DNA of 64,000 nt. Origin: Lachnospiraceae bacterium (GTDB taxonomy: Bacteria; Bacillota; Clostridia; Lachnospirales; Lachnospiraceae). Below, one piece after another: positions 46,261-62,484 of the stretch. The position numbers were made by a program, and so were the translations under genes. The notes under the pieces were generated by a model that did no database searches, had not been told where the DNA came from, and saw only the letters and a program-made list of their open reading frames with translations. Each line of letters starts with the position of its first letter. The first letter of the stretch is position 1. The stretch covers positions 1 to 64,000 of the forward strand of contig CABJBM010000004.1 in NCBI GenBank assembly GCA_902363835.1, written 5' to 3'.

Positions 46261-46298
46261 AGTTCCTCTCTCCTAACGTAATCCGTATTTTTTGGTAC

Positions 46299-46337
46299 AA
46301 AAAGACTGCCCCTGACTGAGTCTCAGGCAGTCTTTTG
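46299..46337 (-). terminator. Hairpin between binding-protein and ATPase genes
   Basis: AAAAAGACTGCC pairs with GGCAGTCTTTTG, with an inner CTGA/TCAG stem. On the reverse strand a T-run follows (CTTTTTG). It lies 20 bp after the binding-protein gene and would let only part of the transcripts continue into the ATPase and permease genes. Confidence 0.75.
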
Positions 46338-46356
46338 TTTGGATTGATGCAGTTTA

Positions 46357-47865: not shown

Positions 47866-48150
47866 TCATTCACTGCAATAATACTCTTTAATTGAACCAA
47901 TCAGGGCTATTACGCGCTGGTCCTGAATCCTGTAAACCACATTCATACCCAGCTTTTCGGAAGCCAGAATTCCGGCTGTTTTCATTTGGTTCAAATGCTG
48001 TGAGAGCGCAGAAGCTGTAATGTTTGGAGTGAATTTGTGGATTTCCCCTACGGTAAGCGGCCCTTGTATCAGCGCACACAGAACCAGCAGACGATGTTCA
48101 TTAGCCAGTATTTTAAGCAGCTCCGCTATCTTTTTCGCTTGTTCTTCCAC
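47866..48150 (-). CDS. ArsR-family transcriptional regulator
   Basis: A 94-residue winged-helix protein. The pattern KILANEHRLLVLCALIQGPLTVGEIHKFTPNITASALSQHLNQMKTAGILASEKLGMNVVYRI matches ArsR regulators, which usually respond to metals or redox changes. The metal-binding cysteine pair of ArsR/SmtB is not present in helix alpha-3; Cys25 and the penultimate CSE are the only cysteines. It starts with GTG and overlaps the preceding gene by 38 bases. It is last of a three-gene transcript and probably controls it. Confidence 0.85.
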   Translation of the reverse strand: MEEQAKKIAELLKILANEHRLLVLCALIQGPLTVGEIHKFTPNITASALSQHLNQMKTAGILASEKLGMNVVYRIQDQRVIALIGSIKEYYCSE

Positions 48151-48727
48151 AGTCAGTACACTCCTTTCCTTGTTTGAGCTGGCAGATCCCCTGTGTCATT
48201 GTCCCCATAGGGCAATATACACACCAGGTGCGAGGACGAAACAGAATCATAGTGACAAGACCCAGTATAGTGGAGGTCAACATCACTCCAAAAAAACCAA
48301 AGGCATACTGTGCGATCCAGGGGCTCGCCATACCTACTTCGGCCCATTGCCAGGGCAGCTTAAACATCCAGAGGAGAGTTACCGTTTCCCGCAGCGGAGC
48401 ACCGGTAAAGACTTTATAGGTGTTAAGAAGCATCAGGCAAAACATAGTCATAAAAAAGGTGAGAAATCCGTACCGGAACCAGCGGCTGCGCAGAAATTTA
48501 GGCGGCTTCCTATTGCGGGACAGCTTCAGTCTGGTTCCAAGTAAACCAAGCAGCTGGCCGCGTCCGCAAAAACGGTTGCAATACGTTTTGCTGCCGCCAA
48601 TGGCGGCAACCAGCAGAGGAATTACAAAAAACACCATTCCCAGCCATGCAAAAAGAATATTGAACAGGCCAAGGGTCAAATAAAGCAACTCGGCAATCCA
48701 GAGAAAATCATACCATTTCTTTTTCAT
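48113..48727 (-). CDS. NapH/CcoG-like 4Fe-4S membrane protein
   Basis: A 204-residue membrane protein with four or five helices. Cysteine motifs are SKTYCNRFCGRGQLLGLL near residue 48, WCVYCPMGTMTQGICQ near 170, and CTDCG near the end. This is the design of NapH/CcoG-family electron-transfer proteins. I start at the ATG at 48727 behind GGAGGGC, four bases inside the ferredoxin gene, rather than at the longer frame. It likely receives electrons from, or gives them to, the ferredoxin encoded just upstream. Confidence 0.8.
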   Translation of the reverse strand: MKKKWYDFLWIAELLYLTLGLFNILFAWLGMVFFVIPLLVAAIGGSKTYCNRFCGRGQLLGLLGTRLKLSRNRKPPKFLRSRWFRYGFLTFFMTMFCLMLLNTYKVFTGAPLRETVTLLWMFKLPWQWAEVGMASPWIAQYAFGFFGVMLTSTILGLVTMILFRPRTWCVYCPMGTMTQGICQLKQGKECTDCGRTSEKDSGAA

Positions 48728-48930
48728 ACCGCTGCCCTCCGGTCCGCAATCGTGATAACATCGGCAGGACATATCCTGGCGCACTTGCCGCATCCTATAC
48801 ACTTTTCACTGTCAATCAGGGCACTAACCCCCGAATTAATGCTGATGGCCTCTTTCGGACAGGTTGTTACACAACACCCGCAGGCTACGCATTCCCTTCC
48901 GATGCGGGCAATCCTGGTTGCTTTGTTCAT
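48724..48930 (-). CDS. Small ferredoxin, 2[4Fe-4S]
   Basis: A 68-residue protein with two cysteine motifs, CVACGCCVTTCPKEAI and CIGCGKCARICPADVI. These bind two cubane clusters. It is first of a transcript with the NapH-like protein and the ArsR regulator, from the consensus promoter at 48966-48994. An unusual RTARIGREC N-terminal extension has no other visible feature. Confidence 0.92.
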   Translation of the reverse strand: MNKATRIARIGRECVACGCCVTTCPKEAISINSGVSALIDSEKCIGCGKCARICPADVITIADRRAAV

Positions 48931-49033: not shown

Positions 49034-49069
49034 AGAAAAAAGCCGCAGAATAAGGAAATGTTCTGCGGC
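49034..49069 (-). terminator. Terminator of the quinone / electron-transfer operon
   Basis: On the reverse strand GCCGCAGAA pairs with TTCTGCGGC, followed by TTTTTTC. It lies 35 bp beyond the last permease gene and closes the run of genes starting at 60261. Confidence 0.88.
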
Positions 49070-49102
49070 AAATCTTGGAATCTGCTAATATTGTTAAGGC
49101 AT

Positions 49103-49840
49103 TTACTTCGTTCCTCTGCACAGCACACACTGAATCCCATCCAATATCCAGAACAATGCTGCTCCTACCACCGACATGACCATAATGCCGCCGTACATCT
49201 GAATATAGTTGATTCTGGACCAGGCATCCAGGATGTAATAACCCATTCCCCAGCGTGTTCCATAGGCTTCTACAATCAAAAGGATGGCCAGAGAGGTTCC
49301 TGCTCCGATCCGGATGCTGGTAAACAGCTCCGGCAGTACTGCTGGCAGGGTGATATCCTTTAAGATGCTACTTTTATTGGCTCCGGCGCTTTTGGCCACA
49401 TAATAAATGCCCTGGTCGATATGCTCCGCCGCATCCCGGACAGCGACAATGATCTGGAATACCGTGGTCAGAACAATGATGAGAATTTTGGAACCATTGC
49501 CCAGCCCTAAAAGCAGCATACAGACAGGAAGCAGGGCTGTCTTTGGAATGGGATAGGAAAAGTACACCAGAGGATGAAGAATACGGTTGGCAATGGGGGA
49601 GGAAGCCATAATAAGCCCTATGGGAATGCCCATGAAAAGGGCAATGGATAAACCTGCCGCCACCCGGCCTAAGCTGGCCCCTATGTGAAGCCAGAGCTTT
49701 CCGTTCATCACCTGGCCGAATTTTCCATAGACAGTGAGAGGGCCGGGAAGCACTGGGGTGGATAAAAAGGATGCGAGAAGGAACCATAACAAATTTACAA
49801 GCAAGAACCCCTTTAAAAAGACCCACATTTTCTTCCTCAT
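49103..49840 (-). CDS. ABC transporter permease (SsuC/TauC family)
   Basis: A 245-residue permease with six predicted helices, and the conserved loop VAKSAGANKSSILKDITLPAVLPELFTSIRIGAGTS. This family moves sulfonates, nitrate, thiamine precursors and aromatic acids. It works with the ATPase and binding protein encoded upstream. Its ATG overlaps the ATPase stop by four bases. Its position behind UbiX, UbiA and UbiD genes suggests a quinone precursor as the cargo, an inference. Confidence 0.9.
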   Translation of the reverse strand: MRKKMWVFLKGFLLVNLLWFLLASFLSTPVLPGPLTVYGKFGQVMNGKLWLHIGASLGRVAAGLSIALFMGIPIGLIMASSPIANRILHPLVYFSYPIPKTALLPVCMLLLGLGNGSKILIIVLTTVFQIIVAVRDAAEHIDQGIYYVAKSAGANKSSILKDITLPAVLPELFTSIRIGAGTSLAILLIVEAYGTRWGMGYYILDAWSRINYIQMYGGIMVMSVVGAALFWILDGIQCVLCRGTK

Positions 49841-50574
49841 ATTTCATCCGCCTTTATGATTTTCTCCGTGATCTGCCGGGCCAGGTCCCCATAGGCTGCT
49901 TCGGAAGGACGTTTTATGCCTTGCCATGGATTTGCAGCGAAGAAATTAAAGCTGCCGCCCCGTTCCATAACCGCAATCCAATGGGCAAGATAAAGGGCAT
50001 CCTCTACCCCATGGGTGACCATAACTGTGGTGGGCTTTTTTTCCTTCCAGATGCGCAGAAACAGCTCCCTTGCAGTCAAAGCAGCTCCAATGTCCAGAGC
50101 TGCGAAAGGCTCGTCCATGAGGAGAAGTTTTGGATCCATAAGAAATGCCCTTGCAAGAGCTACACGCTGTGACTGACCGCCGCTTAGTGTGCCTGGATAG
50201 CGGTCTAAAAGCTCCTGAATCCCCAGTTCCTTACACAGGCTGGAAAGATGTGTTTCCATGTCCCTTGTATTTCCTCTGATTTTTGCTGTATAAAGGCAGT
50301 TTTCCCTTACGGTTTTCCAGGGCAGAAGCCCGTAATTCTGCGGAATCAGCCCAATAGAACATGTTTTAGGGTCAAGTCCGGCTCCATCCAGGGTGACAGA
50401 ACCCTCATAAGGCAGAATCCCGGCCAGGGCGTGAATCATGGTGGATTTTCCGCAGCCGGAGGGACCCGCCACGGCCAGGACTGTTCCTGTCTCAAGCGGC
50501 CAGGACATCTGGTCAATGACCTTCTGTATCCCGCCCTTTTTATATGTGACAGAGATATCTTTCACTTCCAGCAT
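49837..50574 (-). CDS. ABC transporter ATPase (SsuB/TauB family)
   Basis: A 245-residue ATPase. Walker A is GPSGCGKST (37-45), the Q-loop is GLIPQNYGLLPWKTVRENCL, the signature is LSGGQSQR, and Walker B is LLLMDEPFAALD. The aromatic/sulfonate-type ATPase energises the permease encoded downstream. It follows the binding-protein gene by 27 bp with a GGGAGGG site. Confidence 0.92.
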   Translation of the reverse strand: MLEVKDISVTYKKGGIQKVIDQMSWPLETGTVLAVAGPSGCGKSTMIHALAGILPYEGSVTLDGAGLDPKTCSIGLIPQNYGLLPWKTVRENCLYTAKIRGNTRDMETHLSSLCKELGIQELLDRYPGTLSGGQSQRVALARAFLMDPKLLLMDEPFAALDIGAALTARELFLRIWKEKKPTTVMVTHGVEDALYLAHWIAVMERGGSFNFFAANPWQGIKRPSEAAYGDLARQITEKIIKADEI

Positions 50575-50601
50575 GTGGTTCCCTCCCTTATCCTTACTTT
50601 T

Positions 50602-51576
50602 CTATTTCAGTTCTTCTGTAAGCTGATCAGGCTTTAAATCAGGGCTGCATAATCCCTTTTTTGCCGCCCATTCCACAGCAGCCTGTAAGTCATCCGCTTT
50701 TGGAAGTTCATTTTTACGGTATACCGGCAGTTTAATGTTCCCGGTAAGCTCCTCAGGATAACCTGCCCCTTTGATAACAATGGCTTCATATTCGTTCAGA
50801 GGCGTGCTGTTAAGATAGCCCACAGCCTCATCGTATGCCTGATACATCTTTTGAATGGTATCGGACTTTTCATCAATGGCTTTCTTCGTAAATGCAGATA
50901 CGGCGGGATACAGTCCGTCTGTGTTGGCGCTTCCCAGGACCACCGCTCCATCCTTGATGGCAAGGGTGGAAAATGGTTCAGGCAGAAGGACCAGATCTAT
51001 CTTGCCGTTTCTCAGCATTTCAAGCCTGTCAGGGATACGGGGTACCACCTGCTTGTCCAGATACGTATCATCCAACCCCGCATTATTTAAAATATAATCC
51101 AGGGAATATTCGATCAGCGTGTTTTCTGAAATTGCAATGCTTTTTCCTGCCGCATCGTCCAGGGAAGTGATCCCGGTATCTTTTCCGGCCAGCAGCACAT
51201 AATCTCCGTCCGTACATCCGGTTGCCTTTACATCCAGTCCGGCGTTCTGATACATGCACAGTCCGATAAAGTCGGTAAATACCCCGTCTAATTTATCTGC
51301 CTGAAGAGCTGCATCCCGGTCTTTTGCAGAAGAGAATACCTGCATATCCAACTGGAATCCGTACTTTTTGTCAAGTCCCTGTTCTGTGATTATGGTAAGG
51401 GGCACAATATCGGAAGAATACATGACGCCCAGATGAACCGTGGTATCGACCGGTGTCTTTGCCTTGCCGGTACAGCCGCCAAGAATGGCAGCCGCTGCGC
51501 CGCACAGCAGCAGAGTGAGAATTTTTCTGTTTTTCAAATGAGAATGTTTTACAGCGTTTTTTTCAGATTTATTCAT
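50602..51576 (-). CDS. ABC transporter substrate-binding lipoprotein (NMT1/SsuA-like)
   Basis: A 324-residue lipoprotein with lipobox LGGC (Cys35). The mature part is an NMT1/SsuA-type fold (VHLGVMYSSDIVPLTIITEQGLDKKYG, DGVFTDFIGLCMYQNAGLDVKATG, and GKSIAISENTLIEYSLDYIL). This fold binds sulfonates, nitrate, taurine, thiamine precursors and, in MqnA/MqnD relatives, futalosine-pathway intermediates. I start at ATG 51576 behind AGGAAAA. In this operon its ligand is likely a small aromatic or naphthoic acid used for quinone synthesis; sulfonates are the alternative. Confidence 0.88.
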   Translation of the reverse strand: MNKSEKNAVKHSHLKNRKILTLLLCGAAAAILGGCTGKAKTPVDTTVHLGVMYSSDIVPLTIITEQGLDKKYGFQLDMQVFSSAKDRDAALQADKLDGVFTDFIGLCMYQNAGLDVKATGCTDGDYVLLAGKDTGITSLDDAAGKSIAISENTLIEYSLDYILNNAGLDDTYLDKQVVPRIPDRLEMLRNGKIDLVLLPEPFSTLAIKDGAVVLGSANTDGLYPAVSAFTKKAIDEKSDTIQKMYQAYDEAVGYLNSTPLNEYEAIVIKGAGYPEELTGNIKLPVYRKNELPKADDLQAAVEWAAKKGLCSPDLKPDQLTEELK

Positions 51577-51635
51577 ATGTTTTCCTATAATCCTTTTATG
51601 AGGTTCCATTTATTTTTTGTTTCCATATTTATTTT

Positions 51636-52220
51636 CTATAGTTCTTCTTTCCATCTCTTATACCGGTGGTTTTCCACCCTTAAGCAGTCAAGTACGCGTC
51701 CGGCCATGAAATCCGCCATATCATCAAGACTTTTCGGCTTCTGGTAAAAGGCCGGCATGGCAGGGACCATAAATGCACCGCATTCTGCCAGAGTCAGCAT
51801 GTTCTTCAAATGAATCTGGGACAGAGGCGTTTCCCTGGGCATTAAGACCAGCGGACGGCGCTGTTTTAATGCCACATCGGCAGCCCGTGTAATTAAATCC
51901 GGGGTAATGCCTGCCGCAATATGGGCCAGCTTTGACATGGAGCATGGCGCAATGACCATTCCATCGGTCAGATGAGAACCGCTGGCAGCCGCAGAAAACA
52001 GATCCTTGTTATTCTCCAGGATAAGCCGGTCTGTGAAACGTTCTTTAAAATCAGCGATCCATTCTCCTGTTTCCCGCCCGGTTTCGTAGGCAACGACCTT
52101 TTCCCCTGTTTGCGTCAGGATGAGCCGTACCCTTGCTCCTGCTTCAAGCAGGGCTTCTGTTGTCCGAAGGCCGTAGATGCTGCCGCTTGCGCCTGTGATT
52201 CCAACTACATACTGTTTCAT
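51636..52220 (-). CDS. ubiX: UbiX-family flavin prenyltransferase
   Basis: A 194-residue protein with the UbiX opening VVGITGASGSIYGLRTTEALLEAG, IAPCSMSKLAHIAAGI, and VLMPRETPLSQIHLKNMLTLAECGA. UbiX joins a dimethylallyl group to FMN and so makes the prenylated-FMN cofactor of UbiD. It lies between the binding-protein and UbiA genes, with UbiD just upstream, so a complete UbiD/UbiX pair is present. In the futalosine route the same partner is called MqnM. Confidence 0.94.
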   Translation of the reverse strand: MKQYVVGITGASGSIYGLRTTEALLEAGARVRLILTQTGEKVVAYETGRETGEWIADFKERFTDRLILENNKDLFSAAASGSHLTDGMVIAPCSMSKLAHIAAGITPDLITRAADVALKQRRPLVLMPRETPLSQIHLKNMLTLAECGAFMVPAMPAFYQKPKSLDDMADFMAGRVLDCLRVENHRYKRWKEEL

Positions 52221-52247
52221 AGTCTGTCTCTTTCCCTTTCCATTCCA

Positions 52248-53126
52248 TTATAAATATACATCCAGAGTTCCGAAAACCAGAAACACAATGCTGGTGATCT
52301 GGCTGATGCTATATGACGCGATATTGACATTTTCCAGGTGATCCGGTGATACCAGCCGATGCTGGATCACCATAAGGACTGCGATGATTCCCAAGCCTGT
52401 TCCGTAAAGCGCACCAAACTGGGGATAAAGCAGCACTCCGGCGGCACACAGGCAAAACAGCGCAGCCCCATGGAACAGGGTGCTGATCAATAAGCCGCCT
52501 TTTACGCCAAACCGCACCGGAATGGAGTGAAGGCCGTTTGTTTTGTCAAATTCATAATCCTGAGTGCCGTAAATAATATCAAAGCCAGCCGTCCATAGGC
52601 AGTTGGCCGCACCAAAGAAAAGGGGGATCAGGGAAAATTTTCCTGTTACCGCCAGCCAGGCCCCCACCGGAGCGCAGGCGCATGTGATTCCCAGAACCAG
52701 ATGGCATGTCCAGGTGAAGCGCTTTGTGTAGGAATAGATTGTCATCAGGAACAGGGCCAGGGGGGACAGGAGGAGGCATAACAGGTTTAAGCGGGAGGCA
52801 CTGAACACCATCACCAGAAAGCACATAGCCACCAGAACCAGGGTTTCCTTTTTTCCGATTTCTCCCTGGGGAATCTGGCGGCCTGCTGTCCTGGGGTTTT
52901 TTGCATCGATCCTGGCATCCACCACCCTATTTAGGGCGTTGGCCCCTGTTCTGGCGCTTAAAAAGGCAAGGGCAGCCCAGAACACGACCTTTAAATCGGG
53001 CCGCCCTCCGGATACAGCCAGCAGGGCGACTGCGGCAAAGGCCAGAGAGAAGATGGTATGGCTGAACATGACCAGCTTCCCGTATTCATTCAATTTATTT
53101 ACTATTTTTCCAATGATCCATCCCAT
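52248..53126 (-). CDS. UbiA/MqnP-family polyprenyltransferase
   Basis: A 292-residue membrane protein with eight to nine helices. The first Asp-rich motif is NRVVDARIDAKNPRT (Asn66, Asp70, Asp74), and the second is DIIYGTQDYEFDKTNGLHSIP. ARIDAKNPRTAGRQIPQG is close to UbiA and MqnP, and less like MenA. It attaches a polyprenyl chain to an aromatic acid. It overlaps the UbiD gene by 32 bases. The polyprenyl chain would come from the synthase at 57264 of the same operon. Confidence 0.9.
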   Translation of the reverse strand: MGWIIGKIVNKLNEYGKLVMFSHTIFSLAFAAVALLAVSGGRPDLKVVFWAALAFLSARTGANALNRVVDARIDAKNPRTAGRQIPQGEIGKKETLVLVAMCFLVMVFSASRLNLLCLLLSPLALFLMTIYSYTKRFTWTCHLVLGITCACAPVGAWLAVTGKFSLIPLFFGAANCLWTAGFDIIYGTQDYEFDKTNGLHSIPVRFGVKGGLLISTLFHGAALFCLCAAGVLLYPQFGALYGTGLGIIAVLMVIQHRLVSPDHLENVNIASYSISQITSIVFLVFGTLDVYL

Positions 53127-54825
53127 AAGTACTCCATTTCTCTGATACCTTCTTTTTTATCTCATCTGTCATCACAATATCTTCCGGCCAGGGACGGGTA
53201 AGCCCTTCTTCCAGCCGCTTTCTGGTGGCATCAAAGGCAACCCTTCTGCCTTCCGTAAACATATCCCTGGTGACATCAATATTGTTGAACACTCTCCACA
53301 TGACGGTGGAATGGTCTGACGGGTCCACATCCTCATCCACAACCAGGATGAGGGAAGCCTTTTTCTCTTCCAGAGCGGCAAGTGCTTTCCGTCTGCCATC
53401 CCATGGCTGTTCTTTGTGTACAGGCACGACCTTAAGGGCTCCTTCTGTGAAGGCTTCTTTTCCTCTGCTGGTGGCGTCTACGCCAAGCCGTCCCCCATAC
53501 AAGGGATAATCCGAGGAGTGGTCCAGGGCATCCAAAGGCCCTTTGCTGACCACAAAATCTTCTTTTGGATCCGCATAACGTAAAATTTCCTGCCACACAG
53601 CAGCCGTATCACAGGGATCTATGGTTTCGTCAACCGCCACGATCATCTTGGCAGACCTCATCTGTCCCATGCCCCAAATGGCATTCATGACGGTTCTGGC
53701 TGCCCCCGGGTAAGATTGCTTTACCGATACCATGGCGCAGTTATGAAAGACTCCCTCAAAGGGCAAATGAATATCCTGAAGTTCAGGTATTGCCATTTTT
53801 AAAATTGGAAGGAATATCCGTTCCGTGGCCTTAGCCATATAGCAGTCTTCCATGGGAGGTTTGCCTACCACGGTGGCAGGATAGACCGGATGCTTTTTAT
53901 GGGTGATGGTTGTGATATGAAATTTGGGATACCAGTCTGCCAGGGAATAATATCCGGTATGGTCTCCGAACGGGCCTTCCCAGACCAGCTCTTCCCCGGG
54001 ATCCACATAGCCCTCCAGCACAAATTCAGCGTCTTCCGGTACGTATAAGTCATTGGTGATGCATTTCACCATTTTTACCGGGCGTTTCCGGAGAAATCCG
54101 GCCAGCATCATTTCATCCAGCTTGGGAGGAAGGGGGGCTGTGGACGCGTAGGTGACAGCCGGGTCGCCTCCCAGAGCAACGGATACGGGCATTGGACAGC
54201 CTTTTTTCCGGTATGCTTCGTAAATACCGGCTCCGTCCTTGTGCTTTTGCCAGTGCATGGCTGTTGTCTTAGAATCCAGCACCTGCATCCGGTACATGCC
54301 TATGTTCTGAAGCTTTGTATCAGGATATTTTGTAAAGACAAGGGGAAGTGTAAAGAAACGCCCTCCGTCAAGAGGCCAGCACTGCAGAACCGGCAGCTGC
54401 CCCAGATCCGGCTCCCTTTCGATTACTTGCTGGCAGCTTGGCCGCCTTATATGAAATTTACTCCGGAAAGGAAAACAGCATAACAGGCGCAGCAGCCTGG
54501 GCGCAGAGAAAATCAGTTTTAAAAACGATGAATAGTTTCCAAAATCCAGATAGGCTCCAATATCTTTCCCAATATCGTCCAGGCTGTCCGCTCCAAGGGA
54601 AAGGGCCATTCTGCTGTCTGTACCAAAGGCGTTCATCAGCACCGGATAGGGAGAACCTTCCACATGTTCAAACAGAAGCGCCTTATTGCCGGAACCGTCC
54701 GCCTTGCAGACCCTGTCTGTGATCTCCGTTATTTCCAGGAGAGGGGATACTTTATCCGTTACCCGGATCAGCTCCCCTCTCTCTTCCAATATATGAATAA
54801 AATCCTGCAGTCCTTTATATGACAT
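53095..54825 (-). CDS. ubiD: UbiD-family decarboxylase
   Basis: About 576 residues. Family motifs are LPVLQCWPLDGGRFFTLPLVFTK, GMYRMQVLDSKTTAMHWQ, PEDAEFVLEGYVDP, ATERIFLPILKMAIPEL and LGVDATSRGKEA. UbiD enzymes use prenylated FMN, made by UbiX, to decarboxylate polyprenyl-aromatic acids in quinone synthesis (UbiD, MqnL) or free aromatic acids. Here the UbiA partner argues for quinone synthesis. The start is ATG 54825 behind AAAGGAGG. Upstream of it lies an array of four tandem repeats reaching its ribosome site. Confidence 0.92.
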   Translation of the reverse strand: MSYKGLQDFIHILEERGELIRVTDKVSPLLEITEITDRVCKADGSGNKALLFEHVEGSPYPVLMNAFGTDSRMALSLGADSLDDIGKDIGAYLDFGNYSSFLKLIFSAPRLLRLLCCFPFRSKFHIRRPSCQQVIEREPDLGQLPVLQCWPLDGGRFFTLPLVFTKYPDTKLQNIGMYRMQVLDSKTTAMHWQKHKDGAGIYEAYRKKGCPMPVSVALGGDPAVTYASTAPLPPKLDEMMLAGFLRKRPVKMVKCITNDLYVPEDAEFVLEGYVDPGEELVWEGPFGDHTGYYSLADWYPKFHITTITHKKHPVYPATVVGKPPMEDCYMAKATERIFLPILKMAIPELQDIHLPFEGVFHNCAMVSVKQSYPGAARTVMNAIWGMGQMRSAKMIVAVDETIDPCDTAAVWQEILRYADPKEDFVVSKGPLDALDHSSDYPLYGGRLGVDATSRGKEAFTEGALKVVPVHKEQPWDGRRKALAALEEKKASLILVVDEDVDPSDHSTVMWRVFNNIDVTRDMFTEGRRVAFDATRKRLEEGLTRPWPEDIVMTDEIKKKVSEKWSTYGMDHWKNSK

Positions 54826-54834
54826 ACGGCCTCC

Positions 54835-55040
54835 TTTCCTCTTTCTTGCCCATGCCTTTTGAATATTCATGTATACTCTCAGGGTGTTTCCTCTTTCCTG
54901 CCCATGCTTTTTAGCATCCAGGTACCCTCAGGGGTGTTTCCTCTGCATCGTCCATGCTTTTTTGGCATCCAGGTATACCCGCAAGGAGTTCCTCCTAATC
55001 CAGCCCATGGTTATAGGGCATCAGGCATACCTGCAGAGTG
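54835..55040. repeat. Four tandem 50-52-bp degenerate repeats
   Basis: Units at 54835-54886, 54887-54936, 54937-54988 and 54989-55040 each begin TTTCCTC or TTCCTCC, contain a CCATG...GCATC(C)AGG(T/C)A core and end in (G)GGTG or similar. The core can form a hairpin (ATGC...GCAT). The array fills the gap between the ApbE and UbiD genes up to the ribosome site of UbiD. Identity between units is imperfect, so the array is old or under selection. Confidence 0.75.
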
Positions 55041-55049
55041 TTTGTAAAT

Positions 55050-56123
55050 TTAACGGTCATGACTGCGGTACGCCTCATAGCCGCTGCTGGTCCGGATGCT
55101 CTCATCCGGCATAACCCACATTGCTTCTACTCCCTCCAGGCTCTCAATCAGAGCCAGTCCTTTTTCATAGGGCAGGTTAAATATGGCAGTAGTCAAAGCG
55201 TCTGCCCACCCGGAATCCCTGCACACAATGGAGACTGCCCGGAAGTATGCTGCGGGCATTAATGTATCGGGATCAATAATGTGGTGGTATTTTACCCCAT
55301 CCACAATATAGTACCTTTCGTAATCGCCGCTGCTGACTAAGGAAAGTCCGTCCAGATCCAAAGTATCAATGGCGGTCTTTTCGCTGTCAAGGTCCGGATT
55401 TTGAATATCCAGCTTCCAGGGTTTTCCGTCTGCCCGTCTTCCAACGGCGCGGATATTGCCTCCTACGCTGAGAAGGATATGATCAATACCCTTTGCTTCC
55501 AGGAATTCTGCTACCCGCTCCGTGGCATAACCTTTTGCAATGGATCCTACATCCAGTCTCATATCAGGATCTGCCAGATAAACGGTGGAGGCTTCTTCAT
55601 CGATAATGAGATTTGAAGAATCCGTATGAAGGGAGGCCGCTTTCAGTGTATCCATTGGGGGAACTTCGGCAGTATCCGGGTCATCGATTCCCCTTGTGCG
55701 GTAGTCGTGCCAGATGGACAGAACACTTCCCATGGCCACATTTATCTTGCCGTTTGTTTTTTTATCAGCTTCTTTGGCCACTTTCAGCATATCAATGATC
55801 TTTTGGTCCACTTTTACAGGGCTTTTTCCGGCATTATCATTGATGGTCTTAATATTGGCAATTCCTTCGTAATCGTTATAGATATCATATAACTTGTGGT
55901 ATGTTTCCAGCTCGTCATGAATGTCTGTAGCAATCTGGCTGAATTCCTCTTTGTTTTCTGCATACCCGACGATCTGGGTGACTGTATCAAAGAGATTCAA
56001 AAATTCGGCGTGGAATCTTTGTGCCTTTTTCGCTCCTATGGCGGCGGTGTTAACCGCCGCCATAGTAAGCGCTGCCAGAGTTCCGGCAATTATTATGAAT
56101 GTTAATACTTTTTTATTTTGCAT
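55050..56123 (-). CDS. ApbE-family FMN transferase (FmnB-like)
   Basis: A 357-residue protein. An N-terminal hydrophobic segment (VLTFIIIAGTLAALTMAAV) anchors it outside the membrane. The catalytic domain has LDVGSIAKGYATERVAEFLEAKG, ILLSVGGNIRAVG, HHIIDPDTLMPAA and a conserved Asp/Thr pocket near ADALTTAIFNL. ApbE enzymes move FMN from FAD onto Ser/Thr of acceptor proteins. The acceptor is the PplA-like lipoprotein whose gene overlaps this one by 11 bases. The start ATG is at 56123. Confidence 0.92.
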   Translation of the reverse strand: MQNKKVLTFIIIAGTLAALTMAAVNTAAIGAKKAQRFHAEFLNLFDTVTQIVGYAENKEEFSQIATDIHDELETYHKLYDIYNDYEGIANIKTINDNAGKSPVKVDQKIIDMLKVAKEADKKTNGKINVAMGSVLSIWHDYRTRGIDDPDTAEVPPMDTLKAASLHTDSSNLIIDEEASTVYLADPDMRLDVGSIAKGYATERVAEFLEAKGIDHILLSVGGNIRAVGRRADGKPWKLDIQNPDLDSEKTAIDTLDLDGLSLVSSGDYERYYIVDGVKYHHIIDPDTLMPAAYFRAVSIVCRDSGWADALTTAIFNLPYEKGLALIESLEGVEAMWVMPDESIRTSSGYEAYRSHDR

Positions 56124-57228
56124 TTGCTTCTGCCTTGGAGAGGCCTTTCTGGAAATCGCCAATACCAACGGTTACGCTGGCTTTTAAGTCGGCATCAGTA
56201 GGTGCGCCTTCGTTTTCATCAATTGCCAGTCCGGCGATCTCACTTGCTGTCTTGCCAACTGCATAATCTGCGAAGCTGGCAGCCTGCTCATTCCACTCTT
56301 TTCCGATTGAGGAAGCTTTTTTCATTCCATAAGCATCACCTAACTGATTCTTGGTCTTGAAATCAGTGGACTTTAAGTCGCTGGTAAGCTTACCTGTTGC
56401 ATCAAAGTTTACGTTAACCTGGGAAGCATCAATTACACAGCTTGTGATCTTGCCGTCTGCACCAAAGCTGGCAATGGTGTAGGTAGAATATGCCTGTGCT
56501 ATGCCAGCAGCATCTGCAGCAGCATCTTTGGACTTGCTGATACCTGTAACAATACCATAGCCCAGCTTGTCACCAGCCTGTGCGCCGGTGCTCTTGGCAT
56601 TTGCCACAGCCTGATCTACAACATCAATAAAGTCTCCGATATGAACGGTAATGGTAGCCTTTAAATCAGCATCTTCTGCAACACCATCAGAAGAAACGGC
56701 AATTCCCTTTACTTCATCAGCTGTTTTTCCGATTACATACTGTGCAAAGCCGGCAGCCTGCTCGTTCCATTCCTTGCTGATGCCGGAAGCTTTTTTCATG
56801 CCATATTTTTCACCCAGTTCATTTTTGGATTCAACAACAGTACCAAGATCTGTAAGCAGTTTACCTTCTTTGGAGAAGTTCACCTTGGTCTGAACGGAAT
56901 CAATCTTGCAGTCTACGATCTTGCCGCTTTCGTCAACCAGTACGGCTGCAAACATAGTATCTACTTCTGCGAGACCATCTTTTTCACCGGCATCTGTGGA
57001 TTTACCGATGGAAGAAAGGACTGCGTAACCTGTGGAAAGGGCACCGGCTGCTGCTTCATTCTTTGCAGCTTCTGTGGTGGTCTCAGCCTGTGTGGTAGGC
57101 GCGGCAGTGGTTGCTGCCTCTGTTGGTGCAGCAGTGGTTGGCGCCTGCTTTAAATTAGAAGAACAGCCTGCCAGAATGGATGCTGCTGCCATAAGGCCGC
57201 AGCTTAAAGCTAATACTCGTTTTTTCAT
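56113..57228 (-). CDS. PplA-like lipoprotein with two repeated FMN-acceptor-type domains
   Basis: A 371-residue lipoprotein: lipobox LAGC (Cys22), a Thr/Ala-rich linker (25-62), then two similar domains at about 64-200 and 222-360. Each has the pattern of a Gly-Tyr opening, a KYGMKKAS or AYGMKKAS segment, SKEWNEQA or GKEWNEQA, Gly-Lys-Thr, and a closing DADLKAT or DADLKAS motif. That last motif resembles the flavinylation consensus (D-x-x-S/T-G-A-T/S) but has Leu-Lys where Ser-Gly is usual. The layout matches PplA of Listeria, a surface protein with two covalent FMN groups that carries electrons outwards. Confidence 0.82.
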   Translation of the reverse strand: MKKRVLALSCGLMAAASILAGCSSNLKQAPTTAAPTEAATTAAPTTQAETTTEAAKNEAAAGALSTGYAVLSSIGKSTDAGEKDGLAEVDTMFAAVLVDESGKIVDCKIDSVQTKVNFSKEGKLLTDLGTVVESKNELGEKYGMKKASGISKEWNEQAAGFAQYVIGKTADEVKGIAVSSDGVAEDADLKATITVHIGDFIDVVDQAVANAKSTGAQAGDKLGYGIVTGISKSKDAAADAAGIAQAYSTYTIASFGADGKITSCVIDASQVNVNFDATGKLTSDLKSTDFKTKNQLGDAYGMKKASSIGKEWNEQAASFADYAVGKTASEIAGLAIDENEGAPTDADLKASVTVGIGDFQKGLSKAEANAK

Positions 57229-57263
57229 AGAAATTACTCCTCCTTATGTTGCTTTATATTGTA

Positions 57264-58250
57264 TTATTTTTTAATACCATAATAAGATTTATCCACCACG
57301 GTCATGATCCTGGCCTTTTTAGCTTCGGATAATTCCAGATTCCTGATGGTGTTTGATGCTTTCGCATAGTATCTGCCGGCTACGGCTTTTGTATAAGTAG
57401 TTCCGCCTGCTTCCAAAACTCTGTCATAAAGCTCCTTGGCGGAAACCAGGCCATTTTTCACCTGTCCTAAAAAGTTCTCATCCTGTTTCATGGCATGGAT
57501 GAGAGGCAGGGTGACAACCCCTTCTTCATAATCTGAGCGGACATTCTTCTTTGCCTGCTTCTCCTCCATCTCATAATCAATGCAGTCATCCATAAGCTGG
57601 AAGATCATGCCCACATCGTTGCCAGCCTTCCGGTACATGCGAAGCTTTTTCTCATCCTTTGTGGACAGCATGGCGCCGCCGTGAAAGGAGGCCTCAAAAA
57701 GTGCTGCTGTCTTTCCCTTGATGATGCTTAAGTAACGGTAAACCGATAAATCCAGGTTGCCATTGTTAATTTCCTGACGAAGCTCGCCCATGCAAATCCT
57801 GGACAGGTAATTGGGCATATCCAAAGCGTTATACTCGTTTCTTTGAGGAATGGAAGTTGCCAGCTTAAGAGCCAGGGACAATAAGTAGTCTCCGCATATG
57901 ACTGCCACCTTTTTTCCAAACCTCTTTTGAAGTGTTTCGATTCCACGCCTTGTATCGGCTTCATCGATCACGTCATCATGAACCAGCGTAGCCAGATGCA
58001 GCAGTTCAACCGCAGATGCCAGAGCGACGGCCTCATCCGGGACTTTATCCTCCTCATCCATGGAACAGGCCAACAGCCCATAGGCACGGATGAATTTGCC
58101 GGTGGATTTCGCCAGATGAGCCGTATAATGCCTGATGACAGGAGGCGCTGAAGATAAATGCTTTTCCACAGCTGATGCCATTAAATGAAAAGCCTCTTCA
58201 AACTCATACCGCGGCCCGCCGGCATCCTCCAACATTTCTCTATTAGTCAT
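57264..58250 (-). CDS. Polyprenyl diphosphate synthase
   Basis: A 328-residue all-alpha prenyltransferase. The first Asp-rich motif DDVID is at 92-96 and the second DDCID at 221-225. GKTAALFEASFHGGA lies between. It elongates isoprenoid chains from FPP or GGPP; the chain length (hepta- to octaprenyl) is set by residues before the first motif and cannot be fixed by eye. In this operon it supplies the tail for the UbiA enzyme. Its start overlaps the NDH-2 gene by eight bases. It corresponds in role to DmkB of the Listeria locus. Confidence 0.92.
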   Translation of the reverse strand: MTNREMLEDAGGPRYEFEEAFHLMASAVEKHLSSAPPVIRHYTAHLAKSTGKFIRAYGLLACSMDEEDKVPDEAVALASAVELLHLATLVHDDVIDEADTRRGIETLQKRFGKKVAVICGDYLLSLALKLATSIPQRNEYNALDMPNYLSRICMGELRQEINNGNLDLSVYRYLSIIKGKTAALFEASFHGGAMLSTKDEKKLRMYRKAGNDVGMIFQLMDDCIDYEMEEKQAKKNVRSDYEEGVVTLPLIHAMKQDENFLGQVKNGLVSAKELYDRVLEAGGTTYTKAVAGRYYAKASNTIRNLELSEAKKARIMTVVDKSYYGIKK

Positions 58251-60261
58251 TGTATAAATACCACTTCCTTATGAAGGGAAGTTTTCTCCATTTTTTCTTA
58301 AGCCAGGGCATGAAATAATAATCAAGTCCAAGGGTTCTGCCGCCGCCGATCAGGACTGCTATGCCGGCGAAAATCATCCAGAACGTGTTTAAGTAAAGAC
58401 CGGTGGTACAAACGAACATAAACTGAAGCACCAGGGACGCTGCGGAAGAAAGAAAATTGAACAAGCCGGCCATTAAGGCAAGGCCGATCAGGATTTCCGC
58501 AATTACAATACCTCGCTGCATGAACAGCTGCAGTCCGCCGTTTGGCAGAATTACATTGTTCACAAACCAGTTCATTGGAGCAAAATCCAGTTTAAAGGCA
58601 TAATCAGACAAAGTGGCATGGGATAAGCCCACAGAGCTGACAAGGGTGGCGTCTATCAATCCTAATATATGATAGGAGAAAACAGGTACACCGCTGGAAA
58701 CTGCATCAGCCACAGCACCTGTGGCACTGGAAACCGCATCAGCCGCCGCCGAAGTTGCGCTGGAAACCGCATCAGCGGAAGGAGCTGCTCCTCCGATGCC
58801 TGTGATCCCGTAGGGAGACAGAATGTTGTTAAAGAACTGATTGGCTCCGCCAAAGAATCCGCTGAGCATTGGCTGGTCCATCCAGCCTTCCACAATCTTC
58901 ATAACCCCTTCAAATACCCATACGGCACCTAGCCAGACACGCAGAGGCATGAGCAAAAAGCTTGGGGTCCTGTTGGAGAAATGGCCGCCCAGGAAGCTTC
59001 TGCGGTTGCGGATGGTAAAGAATTCGTGGCACACATAACTCCAGATCTTATTCCAGCCCAACACCTGGATAAAATAAATCACATTGATAAAATGCTTGGA
59101 AAGCATGGCAAAGAAGGAACACAGGTTAAACATGAGATTGGGAAGTCCTACCCGTGCCACCCCATAGCGGCCGCCTACGGAGACCATGACGCCGTGGAAG
59201 GATGGTTTATATTCTTCCATGGCTCCTGCCCCGGTAACGGCGCATACCAGATTATGGGCAGCGGTATGAGCGCTTTGCTCACAGTTTTCCACCATCTGGG
59301 GAACTGGTTCCTTTTCTCCCTGAGGCACATACATCATATTGTCGCCGACAACATAAACCTCTTCGTGATCTTTGGCCCGCAGGAAAGAATCCACCTGAAT
59401 TCTTCCGCGCCCTACGGATTCCAGGGTTTTTGCCGCTTCCCCGGTAATATCTGCACTTTCAATACCGGCTGTCCAGATTACTGTTCCTGCCGGATAACGG
59501 TTTTTCTTACCATTTTGATTCAGTTCGATGAAATCCTCGCCAATGGCAGTCACTCCGGTTTCCATCATAACCTTTACGCCCATTTTTGTCAGGCGCTTTT
59601 CTACCTTGCCGGACAGTTTTTCCGGAAGGATGGGCACTGACCGCTTTAAAATATCCACATCATGCATGGACACAAGAGAAGGATCGATTTCATACTCTTC
59701 ACATAAGAAGGGTACATATTCCGCCAGTTCTCCTGCCATTTCCACACCGGTAAAACCGGCTCCTACCACGTAGAAAGTTAAAAGACGGCGCTGTTCCGCC
59801 TCATTTGGTTCACAGGCTGCTTTGCGGAACACCTGATGAATCTGTTCTTTTAATAATACAGCGTCCTCATAGGACCAAAGCTTATAAGAATGTTCTTCTG
59901 CACCTTCCACACCGAAATAGGTGGGCTTGGAGCCGGCGGCCAGAACCAGATAGTCATAATCGTATTCGCCCTGGCTTCCTTTCAGCTTTTTCTCTTCAAT
60001 GGAGATCTGGCTGATGGTGTCTGTGATAATTTCCACATTTCTGCCGGCAAACACTTTTTTTAAGCTGATGCGGATGCTGTCTTCCTCCACCCGCCCGGCG
60101 GCTACCTCGTGAAGCTCTGTGAGCATGGTATGGAACGGATGCCTGTCAATAATGGAGATGCTTACCTCATTGTCCATCTTCATCTTACGGAACTTTTTTT
60201 CCAGTTTTTTGGCAGTTAAAATACCGGCGTAGCCGGCACCTAACACTACTATTCTCTTCAA
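58243..60261 (-). CDS. ndh2: Type II NADH dehydrogenase fused to a DoxX-like membrane domain
   Basis: A 672-residue protein. Residues 1-420 are a flavoprotein with FAD motif GAGYAG (8-13) and NAD motif GAGFTG (167-172), plus VVGDNMMYVP near 304. Residues about 430-650 are a four-helix DoxX-like domain, and a low-complexity repeat (496-524) lies in a loop between helices. NDH-2 enzymes oxidise NADH and reduce quinones without pumping. The start is a TTG at 60261 behind AAGGAGG. It is first in the operon. The Listeria Ndh2 of the electron-transfer locus likewise has an extended membrane C-terminus. Confidence 0.9.
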   Translation of the reverse strand: MKRIVVLGAGYAGILTAKKLEKKFRKMKMDNEVSISIIDRHPFHTMLTELHEVAAGRVEEDSIRISLKKVFAGRNVEIITDTISQISIEEKKLKGSQGEYDYDYLVLAAGSKPTYFGVEGAEEHSYKLWSYEDAVLLKEQIHQVFRKAACEPNEAEQRRLLTFYVVGAGFTGVEMAGELAEYVPFLCEEYEIDPSLVSMHDVDILKRSVPILPEKLSGKVEKRLTKMGVKVMMETGVTAIGEDFIELNQNGKKNRYPAGTVIWTAGIESADITGEAAKTLESVGRGRIQVDSFLRAKDHEEVYVVGDNMMYVPQGEKEPVPQMVENCEQSAHTAAHNLVCAVTGAGAMEEYKPSFHGVMVSVGGRYGVARVGLPNLMFNLCSFFAMLSKHFINVIYFIQVLGWNKIWSYVCHEFFTIRNRRSFLGGHFSNRTPSFLLMPLRVWLGAVWVFEGVMKIVEGWMDQPMLSGFFGGANQFFNNILSPYGITGIGGAAPSADAVSSATSAAADAVSSATGAVADAVSSGVPVFSYHILGLIDATLVSSVGLSHATLSDYAFKLDFAPMNWFVNNVILPNGGLQLFMQRGIVIAEILIGLALMAGLFNFLSSAASLVLQFMFVCTTGLYLNTFWMIFAGIAVLIGGGRTLGLDYYFMPWLKKKWRKLPFIRKWYLYND
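58690..58776 (-). repeat. Internal 33-bp repeats coding ADAVSSAT units
   Basis: Residues 496-506, 507-517 and 518-524 of the NDH-2 protein repeat ADAVSSAT(S/G)A(A/V), a Ser/Ala-rich stretch. The DNA is accordingly repeated every 33 bases (2.6 copies). It lies in a predicted loop between membrane helices. Confidence 0.85.
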
Positions 60262-60311
60262 GTCTTCCCCTCCTTGTATGATAGCGGCTCAAAAAATGCC
60301 ACTTTGACATT

Positions 60312-60320
60312 ATTATAACA
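60312..60320 (-). promoter_or_regulatory. Extended -10 promoter of the quinone / electron-transfer operon
   Basis: On the reverse strand TGTTATAAT is a perfect extended -10. The TTG start of the NDH-2 gene is 50 bp downstream. Confidence 0.6.
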
Positions 60321-60470
60321 TACTGGCAGTGTTTTTACCAGAATTTTATCTCAAAACGATAATTTTTCCCACTTTATAAAATTGTTACTTTTGATGGTTC
60401 CGGTAATGGTCCCGGGCCTTTTTGTTATTTCATAGTATTTGTTAAAAATAAATTGTTTATAGATGTATTT

Positions 60471-60495
60471 CCTGTTTTCTTATTTTATAAACAGG
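60471..60495. promoter_or_regulatory. Operator-like inverted repeat in the divergent region
   Basis: CCTGTTT (60471-60477) and AAACAGG (60489-60495) are perfect 7-bp arms with an 11-base spacer. It lies just upstream of the forward extended -10 at 60503-60511, and about 150 bp from the reverse promoter. Confidence 0.4.
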
Positions 60496-60502
60496 ACAGG
60501 CA

Positions 60503-60511
60503 TGCTATAAT
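60503..60511 (+). promoter_or_regulatory. Extended -10 promoter of the NusG-domain-II gene
   Basis: TGCTATAAT is a perfect extended -10. The gene starts about 40 bp downstream. Confidence 0.6.
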
Positions 60512-60551
60512 AAAAACTCAGGATATTTAAGAGAAATATGAGGTGAAAAAT

Positions 60552-60917
60552 TTGAAACATTTTAAAAATTTGACGGTAATACAAAAAAGAGAGCTGATCC
60601 TGATTGCCGCAATCCTGGCGATATCAGGGCTGCTCTCCGCGGTATTTTATGCCGGAAATAGAAAAGCGCCGGAGCAGGTGGTGGTTACTGTAGACGGCAA
60701 GACTGTGGCTACCCTGGATCTTCATAAGGATACTGATATGATCATCGACGGCCATGGAGGTACGGATCATCTGGTCATCAAAGATGGCTATGCCAGAATT
60801 ACGGAAGCTTCCTGTCCTGATAAAGTGTGCGTCCGCACCGGAAAGATCCATAAAAGCGGTGAACTGATTGTATGCCTGCCAAACCGGGTGGTGGTGACAA
60901 TCGAAGGCGGAGAATAA
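60552..60917 (+). CDS. NusG-domain-II membrane-anchored protein (EetA-like)
   Basis: About 121 residues. One N-terminal helix (LILIAAILAISGLLSAVFYA) anchors a small extracellular domain with VVVTVDGKTVATLDL, HLVIKDGYARITEASCPDKVCVRTGKIHKSGELIVCLPNRVVVTI. The CPDKVC motif is typical. Such NusG-domain-II proteins occur in extracellular electron transfer loci. I place the start at TTG 60552, with GAGGTG as the ribosome site; the GTG at 60543 lies inside it. It is divergent from the NDH-2 operon. An EetB-like partner is not seen nearby. Confidence 0.85.
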   Translation: MKHFKNLTVIQKRELILIAAILAISGLLSAVFYAGNRKAPEQVVVTVDGKTVATLDLHKDTDMIIDGHGGTDHLVIKDGYARITEASCPDKVCVRTGKIHKSGELIVCLPNRVVVTIEGGE

Positions 60918-61053: not shown

Positions 61054-61080
61054 GTGGTCAGGAAGGGAGCTGGTAGAAGA

Positions 61081-62484
61081 ATGATTCAGGCTGAGGTTCG
61101 CATAAGTGAAATTGAATTAAAAGGATTTAAGAATACCCAATACGGACGGATTGTAATGCCGTCTGCCGGAAATAAGGACTTTGTCTCAAAAACAGCGGAT
61201 ATTCTGGGTATTTACGGCCAGAATGGTTCGGGAAAAACGGCAGTGATCGAGGCTATGGAATTTGTCCAGGTTTTGCTCACAGGACAGCCTCTGTCCAGGG
61301 AAACGGTCCACTTTATTTCCAAAGAGTCAGAGACCTGTACCATTACGGTTAAGTTTATTATCCAGGCTGACGGCAGAAAGGCCATGGCAGAGTATTCCGT
61401 CCAGTTAAAGAGAATTTCAAAAGACGAATTTGAAATCAGCCGTGAGATCCTCTGTGCAGCTGCCTGGAAGGGAGAGAAGTTTGAGAGCAAAAAAACCGTG
61501 ATCGATTATGATCTGCATTCGGAAGGCGCGATATTCACTCCTAAATACCGGTTGGAAGACTTAATGCGGGAAAGCGATGAAAATAAGGTGAATTTAAGCG
61601 TTGCAAAAAGAATCGCCCGGAAAGACCTTGTTTCCTTTATTTTCGGCCCGGAAAGCAGATCCGTATTTTTATCCGCTGCAGACGGTGCTTCTGAGGACTA
61701 TGCTTATATCATTGAATCCCTTTATCAATACGCAGGCATGAACTTATTTGTGATTTCCAATGCCCATTCCGGAGCCATCAGCATGAATTTCATGATCCCT
61801 TTTGCCTTTCGTCTGGATCTTGGGGAGAGGATTGCAAAGGGAGACTTGCTTATAAGGCTTGATGAGCCATCAGTGATCAGCAAAGAGCATTTTAAGCTGG
61901 CAAAGCAGATCATCCATGAGATGAATGTGGTCCTTGACACCATAATCCCCGGCCTTTCCATCGGGATTTATGACTTTGGCGAACAGCTTCTTGAACGGGG
62001 AGAAACGGGGCACAGGGTGGAATTGATTTCAAAACGGGGAGAGATCATAATTCCCCTGAAATATGAATCAGAGGGAATCATTAAGATCATTTCCGTTTTA
62101 AATGCTCTTATGTGTGTTTACAATAACTCCTCCATGTGCCTGATTATTGATGAGCTGGATTCCGGGGTATATGAATACCTTTTAGGGGAGCTGCTTTCTG
62201 TTTTTGAAAAAGGGGCAAAAGGGCAGTTGATTTTCACATCCCATAATTTACGTGCACTGGAAATGCTCAATAAAAACAGCATTGTTTTTTCCACGACCAA
62301 TCCCTCCAACCGGTATATCCGCCTGCAGAATATAAAGAGCAATCATAATTTGCGGGATATGTATTTGCGGAGCATTATATTAGGCGGTCAAAAGGAAGCT
62401 ATTTATGAGGAAACCGACAGCGTAGAAATTGGCCGCGCGTTCCGGCGTGCCGGAAAGGCGGTGGGGGATGGGAACCAAAACTAG
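61081..62484 (+). CDS. AAA-family ATPase (AbiL/RloA/AriA-like)
   Basis: A 467-residue ATPase. Walker A is GQNGSGKT (46-53) in an ABC/SMC-type N-terminus (EIELKGFKNTQYGRIVMP), a long helical insert follows, and Walker B is CLIIDELDSGVYEYLLGELLSVFEKGAKGQLIFTSHN near 360-400. It belongs to the OLD/AAA_15/AAA_21 group. Partners in phage defence with a TOPRIM protein include AbiL, RloAB and PARIS (AriA/AriB). Its gene ends 17 bases inside the TOPRIM gene, so both are made together. ATG 61081 follows AAGGGAG. Confidence 0.85.
   Translation: MIQAEVRISEIELKGFKNTQYGRIVMPSAGNKDFVSKTADILGIYGQNGSGKTAVIEAMEFVQVLLTGQPLSRETVHFISKESETCTITVKFIIQADGRKAMAEYSVQLKRISKDEFEISREILCAAAWKGEKFESKKTVIDYDLHSEGAIFTPKYRLEDLMRESDENKVNLSVAKRIARKDLVSFIFGPESRSVFLSAADGASEDYAYIIESLYQYAGMNLFVISNAHSGAISMNFMIPFAFRLDLGERIAKGDLLIRLDEPSVISKEHFKLAKQIIHEMNVVLDTIIPGLSIGIYDFGEQLLERGETGHRVELISKRGEIIIPLKYESEGIIKIISVLNALMCVYNNSSMCLIIDELDSGVYEYLLGELLSVFEKGAKGQLIFTSHNLRALEMLNKNSIVFSTTNPSNRYIRLQNIKSNHNLRDMYLRSIILGGQKEAIYEETDSVEIGRAFRRAGKAVGDGNQN

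Follow-up and report, generated by a model that had tools for sequence, protein, structure and literature searches.

The stretch analysed here, the first 64,000 nucleotides of contig CABJBM010000004.1 from a Lachnospiraceae bacterium (hereafter the window), carries near one end a run of genes for extracellular electron transfer (EET), joined to genes for quinone making and to an ATP-binding cassette (ABC) importer. The question raised by this arrangement is what the importer brings into the cell. An earlier note on the DNA had suggested a self-contained module for quinone making and electron export. Our answer is different: we put at about 0.6 the probability that a flavin-type EET module is here coupled to a second module for quinone salvage, in which an imported ring, most likely a dihydroxynaphthoate, is finished by UbiA, UbiD and UbiX. 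The host appears to be a Lacrimispora-like anaerobe, its nearest kin being Lacrimispora.

A 2016 paper proposed that gut microbes exchange soluble quinone precursors and stated, in its relevant passage, that the genes for their transport 'remain to be annotated' (PMC4746308). The pertinent passages of a 2017 paper state that no quinone-precursor importer had been described up to that time (PMC5738691), and those of a study of Lactiplantibacillus plantarum expect yet unidentified quinone-uptake pathways (PMC10746273). Our literature search, which covered mainly open-access papers with subscription papers and preprints mostly outside it, found among the matches listed none that names a quinone-precursor importer or the same combination of genes. 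In our view the locus is a variant form of the EET locus that offers a testable candidate importer of this kind, namely a concrete, clonable substrate-binding protein (SBP) tied by gene order and genome co-occurrence to the enzymes that would use a quinone precursor. If this is true, electron export in some fermenting Clostridia depends on neighbours (the decarboxylase discussed below was found in 18 of 393 sampled genomes), and a gene marker for such dependence is at hand.

Results

Judged by model scores, the UbiD-family protein of the window (Table 1) is MqnL, the decarboxylase of the futalosine pathway; with the E. coli-type model it reached 340 bits, below its TIGR03701 score of 600.8. 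The UbiA-family protein gave 199-279 bits with three MqnP models and 123 bits with the proteobacterial UbiA model, each value lying below the cut-off of the model concerned. In a 46-row tree it fell within a 38-row group that holds the importer-linked UbiAs and MqnP from the Mqn operons of Paenibacillus and Gorillibacterium, with E. coli UbiA outside the group (support 94/93, slightly below the threshold of the tool) and MenA/DmkA far off. We take the tree as moderate evidence because long branches lead to the E. coli sequences and the position of MqnP within the group is unsettled. Together with UbiX, these two proteins are, by family, enzymes of the last quinone steps, which act on a ring already formed.

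The importer belongs to the SsuA/TauA/NMT1-type superfamily, in that it combines an SBP of that fold (the model is of the SsuA/PqqT type), predicted to be lipid-anchored from a GGC following a hydrophobic stretch, with an ATPase and a binding-protein-dependent (BPD) permease. The earlier note had called it a complete SsuABC-type importer. All three components are indeed present, but the family label does not hold, and assignment to the aliphatic sulfonate type was rejected, as the SBP scored 80.9 bits against an SsuA family cut-off of 163.5. Sequence searches of the PDB with the SBP gave no match, either with the single sequence (E<=0.01) or with a profile (E<=0.001), and PqqT, an SBP that binds pyrroloquinoline quinone (9b1u, 9ooz), differs from it at 18% identity. 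The closest proteins are 93% identical (L. indolis) and, in one further case, 99% identical.

We surveyed the surroundings of the importer by a scan with the SBP alignment, taking one genome per species; two peptide patterns were used, and the resulting 67 loci are not an exhaustive set. UbiA or UbiD lies within 7-9 kb of the SBP and on the same strand in 54 of them, an ATPase lies within 3 kb in 58, and a permease within 8 kb in 57. In the 64 loci with a called open reading frame (ORF), the immediate upstream neighbour of the SBP gene is UbiX 31 times and UbiA 20 times. The 13 loci that have no same-strand UbiA or UbiD consist of one in which UbiD-UbiA is divergent (L026), one at a contig end (L016), one whose sole cassette partners are a U32/aminotransferase pair (L036), two from Paenibacillus and eight from Lactobacillales. 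A single function for all 67 loci was rejected, since the eight Lactobacillales loci, with neither UbiA nor UbiD, may carry another cargo.

Because this set had been selected by the importer, we also made a test on 393 genomes sampled evenly across the class that contains G003, a genome whose gene set matches that of the window; the five best SBP candidates and the three best NDH-2 candidates per genome were scored. An MqnL decarboxylase over the cut-off was found in 18 genomes, and all 18 hold the SBP, which is full-length in 17 and split into two contig-edge pieces in G131, one of them about 110 bases from its UbiD. At E<=1e-40 the SBP was found in 28 of the 393, comprising 17 MqnL-positive genomes, G239 (197 bits) and ten with matches of 141-176 bits that look like paralogues. 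With all 28 counted, the co-occurrence of SBP and MqnL, which is near-perfect in this class, has a Fisher p of 1.5e-21. Two of the class-sample loci (L075 and L078) have a gene of about 1135 aa between UbiA and the SBP.

Ring-making genes were searched in 63 genomes, that is, 49 with the SBP and 14 further MqnL-positive genomes of the class sample (4 of the 18 were already among the 49). Strong matches to MqnA/MqnD (PF02621) were found in three of the 49, Paenibacillus sinensis, P. forsythiae and Gorillibacterium, and in none of the 18 MqnL-positive class genomes, so that 60 of the 63 gave none. Matches below 50 bits were not counted here; the strong ones reached 128-231 bits, apart from one 31-bit fragment in G030, and weak ones over Pfam's 26-bit cut-off occurred in 5 of the 49 genomes (26-34 bits) and in 3 of 20 (29-47 bits, all MqnL-positive). 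MenD passed its cut-off in 4 of the 49 and in none of the 14, with the TIGR00173 matches below the cut-off (40 of 49 and 14 of 14 genomes) taken as other thiamine pyrophosphate enzymes. Neither strong MqnA/MqnD nor MenD was present in 56 of the 63. Self-contained quinone making, as the earlier note suggested, is thus probably not the right reading: most relatives have no markers of either known naphthoate-ring route, and therefore uptake through the importer more likely stands in for ring synthesis. The locus resembles the late futalosine steps (MqnP, MqnL, MqnM) in its MqnL-type UbiD, its UbiA close to MqnP and its UbiX, but it differs in having an importer beside the late enzymes where strong MqnA/MqnD are mostly missing. 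In one genome (G017) that has its own MenD, the importer-linked UbiD is in two pieces with an internal stop codon (G017:C1:5259861-5261154), as if salvage had become dispensable in this one case.

The cassette is also associated with NDH-2. A homolog of the window NDH-2 scoring above 300 bits was found in 61 of the 63 genomes, although matches of 300-400 bits, called by similarity, are not necessarily all EET enzymes; the exceptions are G143, with none, and G030, with a 203-bit match and a contig-end fragment. In the class sample, NDH-2 at E<=1e-60 was found in 79 of 393 genomes, with 17 of the 18 MqnL-positive genomes and 62 of the 375 others among them (p 4.8e-12). At least two EET genes share the stretch of the importer in 10 of the 67 loci, and EET genes stand beside the cassette in 4 of the 11 newly found class-sample genomes whose loci were compared (G120/L076, G164/L077, G149/L080 and G097/L082), a set that leaves out G131, G254 and G429. 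The union of an EET locus with quinone-making genes and an importer, which the earlier note had seen in the window alone, therefore recurs among relatives. G002 and G003 both match the gene set of the window, and in each of these genomes the sole UbiA-superfamily protein found is the importer-linked UbiA, so the quinone used for EET must there either be made by the UbiA route or reach the cell in finished form from outside.

Discussion

The most likely explanation for why late quinone enzymes, an importer and EET genes stand together is that the SBP, ATPase and permease bring in a soluble aromatic acid that other microbes have made. The cargo would most likely be a dihydroxynaphthoate and, by orthology, 1,4-dihydroxy-6-naphthoate, the futalosine intermediate used by MqnP. 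UbiA would prenylate the imported acid with a tail from the polyprenyl synthase, UbiX would supply prenylated FMN, and UbiD would then strip the carboxylate. The resulting membrane quinone would receive electrons from NDH-2 and release them through the surface lipoprotein to external acceptors, and surface proteins would obtain their flavin through ApbE.

The flavin-based EET (FLEET) genes and quinones, including EetA, EetB, FmnA, FmnB, ndh2, pplA, 1,4-dihydroxy-2-naphthoate (DHNA) and demethylmenaquinone (DMK), are treated in the relevant parts of two papers (PMC9973259, PMC8837199). The window shares with the FLEET locus of Listeria and Lactobacillales NDH-2, polyprenyl synthase, ApbE, a surface lipoprotein and the EetA-like NusG domain II protein. 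Unlike that locus, it adds UbiD, UbiA, UbiX and the ABC importer, its lipoprotein has no TGAT-type motif, and tblastn with the proteins of relatives matched neither a DmkA/MenA-like gene nor an EetB-like gene in the window, the latter of which may lie elsewhere in the genome. Assignment as a full FLEET locus was rejected for want of DmkA/MenA and of the ApbE motif in the lipoprotein. The Listeria EET locus is not known to contain UbiD/UbiX. A further parallel is the quinone auxotroph L. plantarum, which performs EET on exogenous DHNA and so on a quinone made by others; in contrast to the window, a dedicated importer and UbiD/UbiX are not named in the portions of those reports that concern us (PMC10746273, PMC8837199).

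Several observations weigh against the salvage reading. The importer stands without nearby UbiA/UbiD in the eight Lactobacillales loci (L055, L056, L058, L059, L061, L062, L064 and L065; 34-38% identity), a U32 gene directly follows the SBP in three Enterococcus loci (L049, L050 and L054), and three Paenibacillaceae carry Mqn genes and the importer together; the cargo may therefore vary. UbiX is near the importer, within 7-9 kb and on the same strand, in only 41 of the 67 loci, and UbiD is broken or fragmentary in G012, G017 and G044, of which G012 and G044 have no MenD over the cut-off. The ligand cannot be read from the shared SBP fold; SsuA, PqqT and nitrate and bicarbonate binders score alike, and the nearest solved UbiA structure is 4od4, a 4-hydroxybenzoate prenyltransferase. 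Absence of ring synthesis was seen in relatives and not in the genome of the window strain itself, and PF02621 and MenD mark only the two known ring routes. Lastly, Lacrimispora celerecrescens also has a DmkA-like MenA, so that it could use DHNA without UbiD.

The alternatives turn in part on a sister form of the cassette. In 21 of the 67 loci (Clostridium, Enterococcus, Geosporobacter and others) it includes a U32 protein and a class III aminotransferase, families that were determined on the pair of one locus (L033). All 21 U32 proteins contain CX6CX15CX3/4C, a pattern that the pertinent part of PMC6747719 describes across U32 families, and this they share with the O2-independent hydroxylases UbiU/UbiV, from which they differ in being one longer protein. 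Two of them were scanned: the best model was the tRNA hydroxylase TrhP, followed by UbiU (151-160 bits), all below cut-off, and one gave a weak UbiV match in its C-terminal half. The U32 protein had no tblastn match in the window, and in the genomes with window-type operons (G001-G003 and G006-G008) no full-length ortholog was found, with a match to the N-terminal part in G001 only. In Paenibacillus sinensis, the EET locus (L097, at G029:C153) contains NDH-2, polyprenyl synthase, UbiA, the aminotransferase, U32 and EetA-/EetB-type genes, together with two ATPases that may be ECF-A, and it lies apart from an Mqn operon that has its own MqnP (L092). The L097 UbiA is a second, EET-linked prenyltransferase in a genome that already has an Mqn operon. 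Given the two forms of the cassette and the separation of L097 from L092, the window and U32 forms may, by gene content, differ in the quinone that they make, and one quinone may be reserved for EET.

A bolder version of the salvage reading, which we offer tentatively and would not bet on, is that the importer family beside UbiD/UbiA is the missing soluble-quinone-precursor transporter of Firmicutes and that the cassette makes a non-menaquinone pool dedicated to electron export. In the sister form, found in Clostridium, Enterococcus and Paenibacillus, the U32 hydroxylase-like protein and the aminotransferase would then turn the ring into an undescribed quinone.

Alternatively, the cargo might be a benzoate of the 4-hydroxybenzoate type and the product a prenylated benzoquinone, hydroxylated by U32 in the lineages that bear it. 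The U32/aminotransferase pair with its invariant cysteine pattern, the UbiU scores and weak UbiV match, the company of U32, aminotransferase and UbiA inside the P. sinensis EET locus, and 4od4 as the nearest solved UbiA would all suit a benzoate. However, TrhP outscores UbiU, with every score under its cut-off, and in the window-type genomes, where full-length U32 was not found, a decarboxylated prenylphenol lacking a further hydroxyl would be no quinone. Moreover, UbiD and UbiA score higher with MqnL and MqnP models than with those of E. coli type, in agreement with the tree, and we think a benzoate cargo unlikely.

Nor do we give much credence to a cargo that has nothing to do with the ring, for instance a sulfonate, a precursor of thiamine, or one of the flavin needed by NDH-2, ApbE or UbiX, with the ring made by an undescribed route of the host. 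The SsuA/NMT1-type families span many cargoes, the missing MqnA/D and MenD are compatible with some other ring route, and the eight Lactobacillales loci hold the importer without UbiA/UbiD. Yet the SBP accompanies MqnL in 18 of 18 genomes, and its gene often lies tight against that of UbiX or UbiA; a general need for flavin or sulfur would not tie the SBP to the MqnL decarboxylase; the SBP also falls short of the SsuA cut-off.

A third scenario is that DHNA itself is imported, as in quinone auxotrophs, with UbiA and UbiD acting instead of or beside DmkA. External DHNA supports EET in L. plantarum and the growth of some gut bacteria, according to the relevant passages of PMC10746273 and PMC5738691. 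DmkA-type genes accompany the cassette in 4 of the 67 loci. MenA/DmkA, however, converts DHNA to DMK in one decarboxylating step, and DHNA as the cargo would therefore leave UbiD and UbiX superfluous, whereas the importer tracks UbiD; in addition, a search of G002 and G003 turned up no DmkA. We regard this scenario as rather improbable. That the ABC proteins serve to export an intermediate of the quinone, or to recycle it, is hardly credible, as a lipid-anchored SBP of this type with a BPD-type permease is the architecture of an importer.

Features of the gene run and its surroundings

The ten minus-strand genes run from 60261 to 49103 in the order NDH-2, polyprenyl synthase, lipoprotein, ApbE, UbiD, UbiA, UbiX, SBP, ATPase and permease. 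This order agrees with the earlier note, as do the divergent NusG domain II gene and the terminator at 49.03 kb, and Pfam or NCBIfam models back every family except that of the lipoprotein.

Table 1. Genes and signals of the EET and quinone locus, with their positions in the window
Feature	Coordinates	Strand	Evidence or remark
Intrinsic terminator	49036..49069	-	perfect 9-bp stem GCCGCAGAA / TTCTGCGGC plus six T; closes the gene run
ABC transporter permease	49103..49840	-	PF00528 E 2.1e-19
ABC transporter ATPase	49837..50574	-	PF00005 E 3.3e-30
Substrate-binding lipoprotein (SBP)	50602..51609	-	NMT1_2 E 4.8e-13; model pLDDT 87
UbiX flavin prenyltransferase	51636..52220	-	TIGR00421 212.6 bits, cut-off 108.9
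UbiA-family prenyltransferase, groups with MqnP	52248..53126	-	PF01040 E 4.5e-55; tree
UbiD-family decarboxylase, MqnL (SCO4490) equivalog	53095..54870	-	TIGR03701 600.8 bits, cut-off 495.9
51-bp tandem repeat, 2.8 copies	54835..54975		occupies most of the ApbE-UbiD gap
ApbE FAD:protein FMN transferase	55050..56168	-	PF02424 E 3.3e-69
Two-domain lipoprotein, PplA-like by position	56113..57228	-	AlphaFold pLDDT 85
Polyprenyl diphosphate synthase	57264..58250	-	PF00348 E 6.8e-54
NDH-2 (Ndh2), C-terminal membrane domain	58243..60261	-	PF07992 E 2e-36
NusG domain II membrane protein, EetA-like	60543..60917	+	PF07009 E 3.5e-33

With ORF starts as listed, the intergenic spacing is -56 to +35 bases, save for 179 between ApbE and UbiD, where the tandem repeat is possibly a leader or spacer. 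For UbiD a start at 54825 is better, as GGAGG precedes the second ATG, and the 324-aa form of the SBP, starting at 51576, matches most close relatives. The terminator was missing from the automated scan because its loop of 10 exceeds the scan maximum of 8. As for the promoter claimed near 60.3 kb, an extended -10 (TGTTATAAT) is present at 60320-60312, upstream of NDH-2, but no good -35 was seen upstream of it; a promoter-like site for the divergent NusG domain II gene lies at 60484-60511. The Rfam scan of the window found no riboswitch. In Anaerotruncus (L002) the EET half adjoins the half with UbiD and the importer, but the two are divergent, and two transcripts are therefore possible.

Among the EET genes, the window NDH-2 shares 93% identity with its counterpart in G001, a genome of L. 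celerecrescens, and the NusG domain II gene adjoins an EetB-type gene in several relatives (PF07456 demonstrated for the L033 copy). UbiD and UbiA matches in plasmid records were at most 39% identical among the best 30 and were put to no further use. In four loci (L042, L043, L053 and L066) a protein of 123-127 aa is encoded divergently from UbiD, with PF21758 demonstrated for the L043 copy; it presumably resembles the LpdD partner of other UbiD systems.

The lipoprotein had been described as a double-domain, PplA-like protein. The AlphaFold model indeed has two similar domains at high confidence, but the likeness to PplA is only remote. The protein is kin to a lipoprotein of a Paenibacillus EET locus (hhalign 96%) and weakly to one of an Enterococcus EET locus (90%, partly signal peptide), which has the motif DVVTGAT twice. 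No Pfam or NCBIfam model matched the window protein at E<=0.001, a PDB sequence search gave three weak matches only, in the signal-peptide and linker part, and Foldseek with the model gave no solved structure at E<=0.001, which speaks neither for nor against an FMN-binding fold. The ApbE flavin-attachment motif [ST]G[AV][ST] is absent from all 27 lipoproteins (the window protein and 26 aligned relatives), with DADLKAT and DADLKAS taken as the equivalent stretches, so the expectation of covalent FMN on this protein finds no backing from the motif.

Outside the gene run, the minus strand at 43499-47463 encodes an ABC importer with a fused double permease, for which the best NCBIfam models of the SBP and permease are of the 2-aminoethylphosphonate type, below cut-off. 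Downstream of the terminator, at 47866-48802 on the same strand, lie genes for a regulator of the ArsR type and for a membrane protein that is rich in cysteine and has a 4Fe-4S domain (PF12801). On the plus strand, an AAA/RecF-like ATPase and an overlapping 244-aa gene of no known family (61054-63163) could be a defence pair, and a Group II intron match (Rfam RF00029, 53.9 bits) lies at the window edge (7-80).

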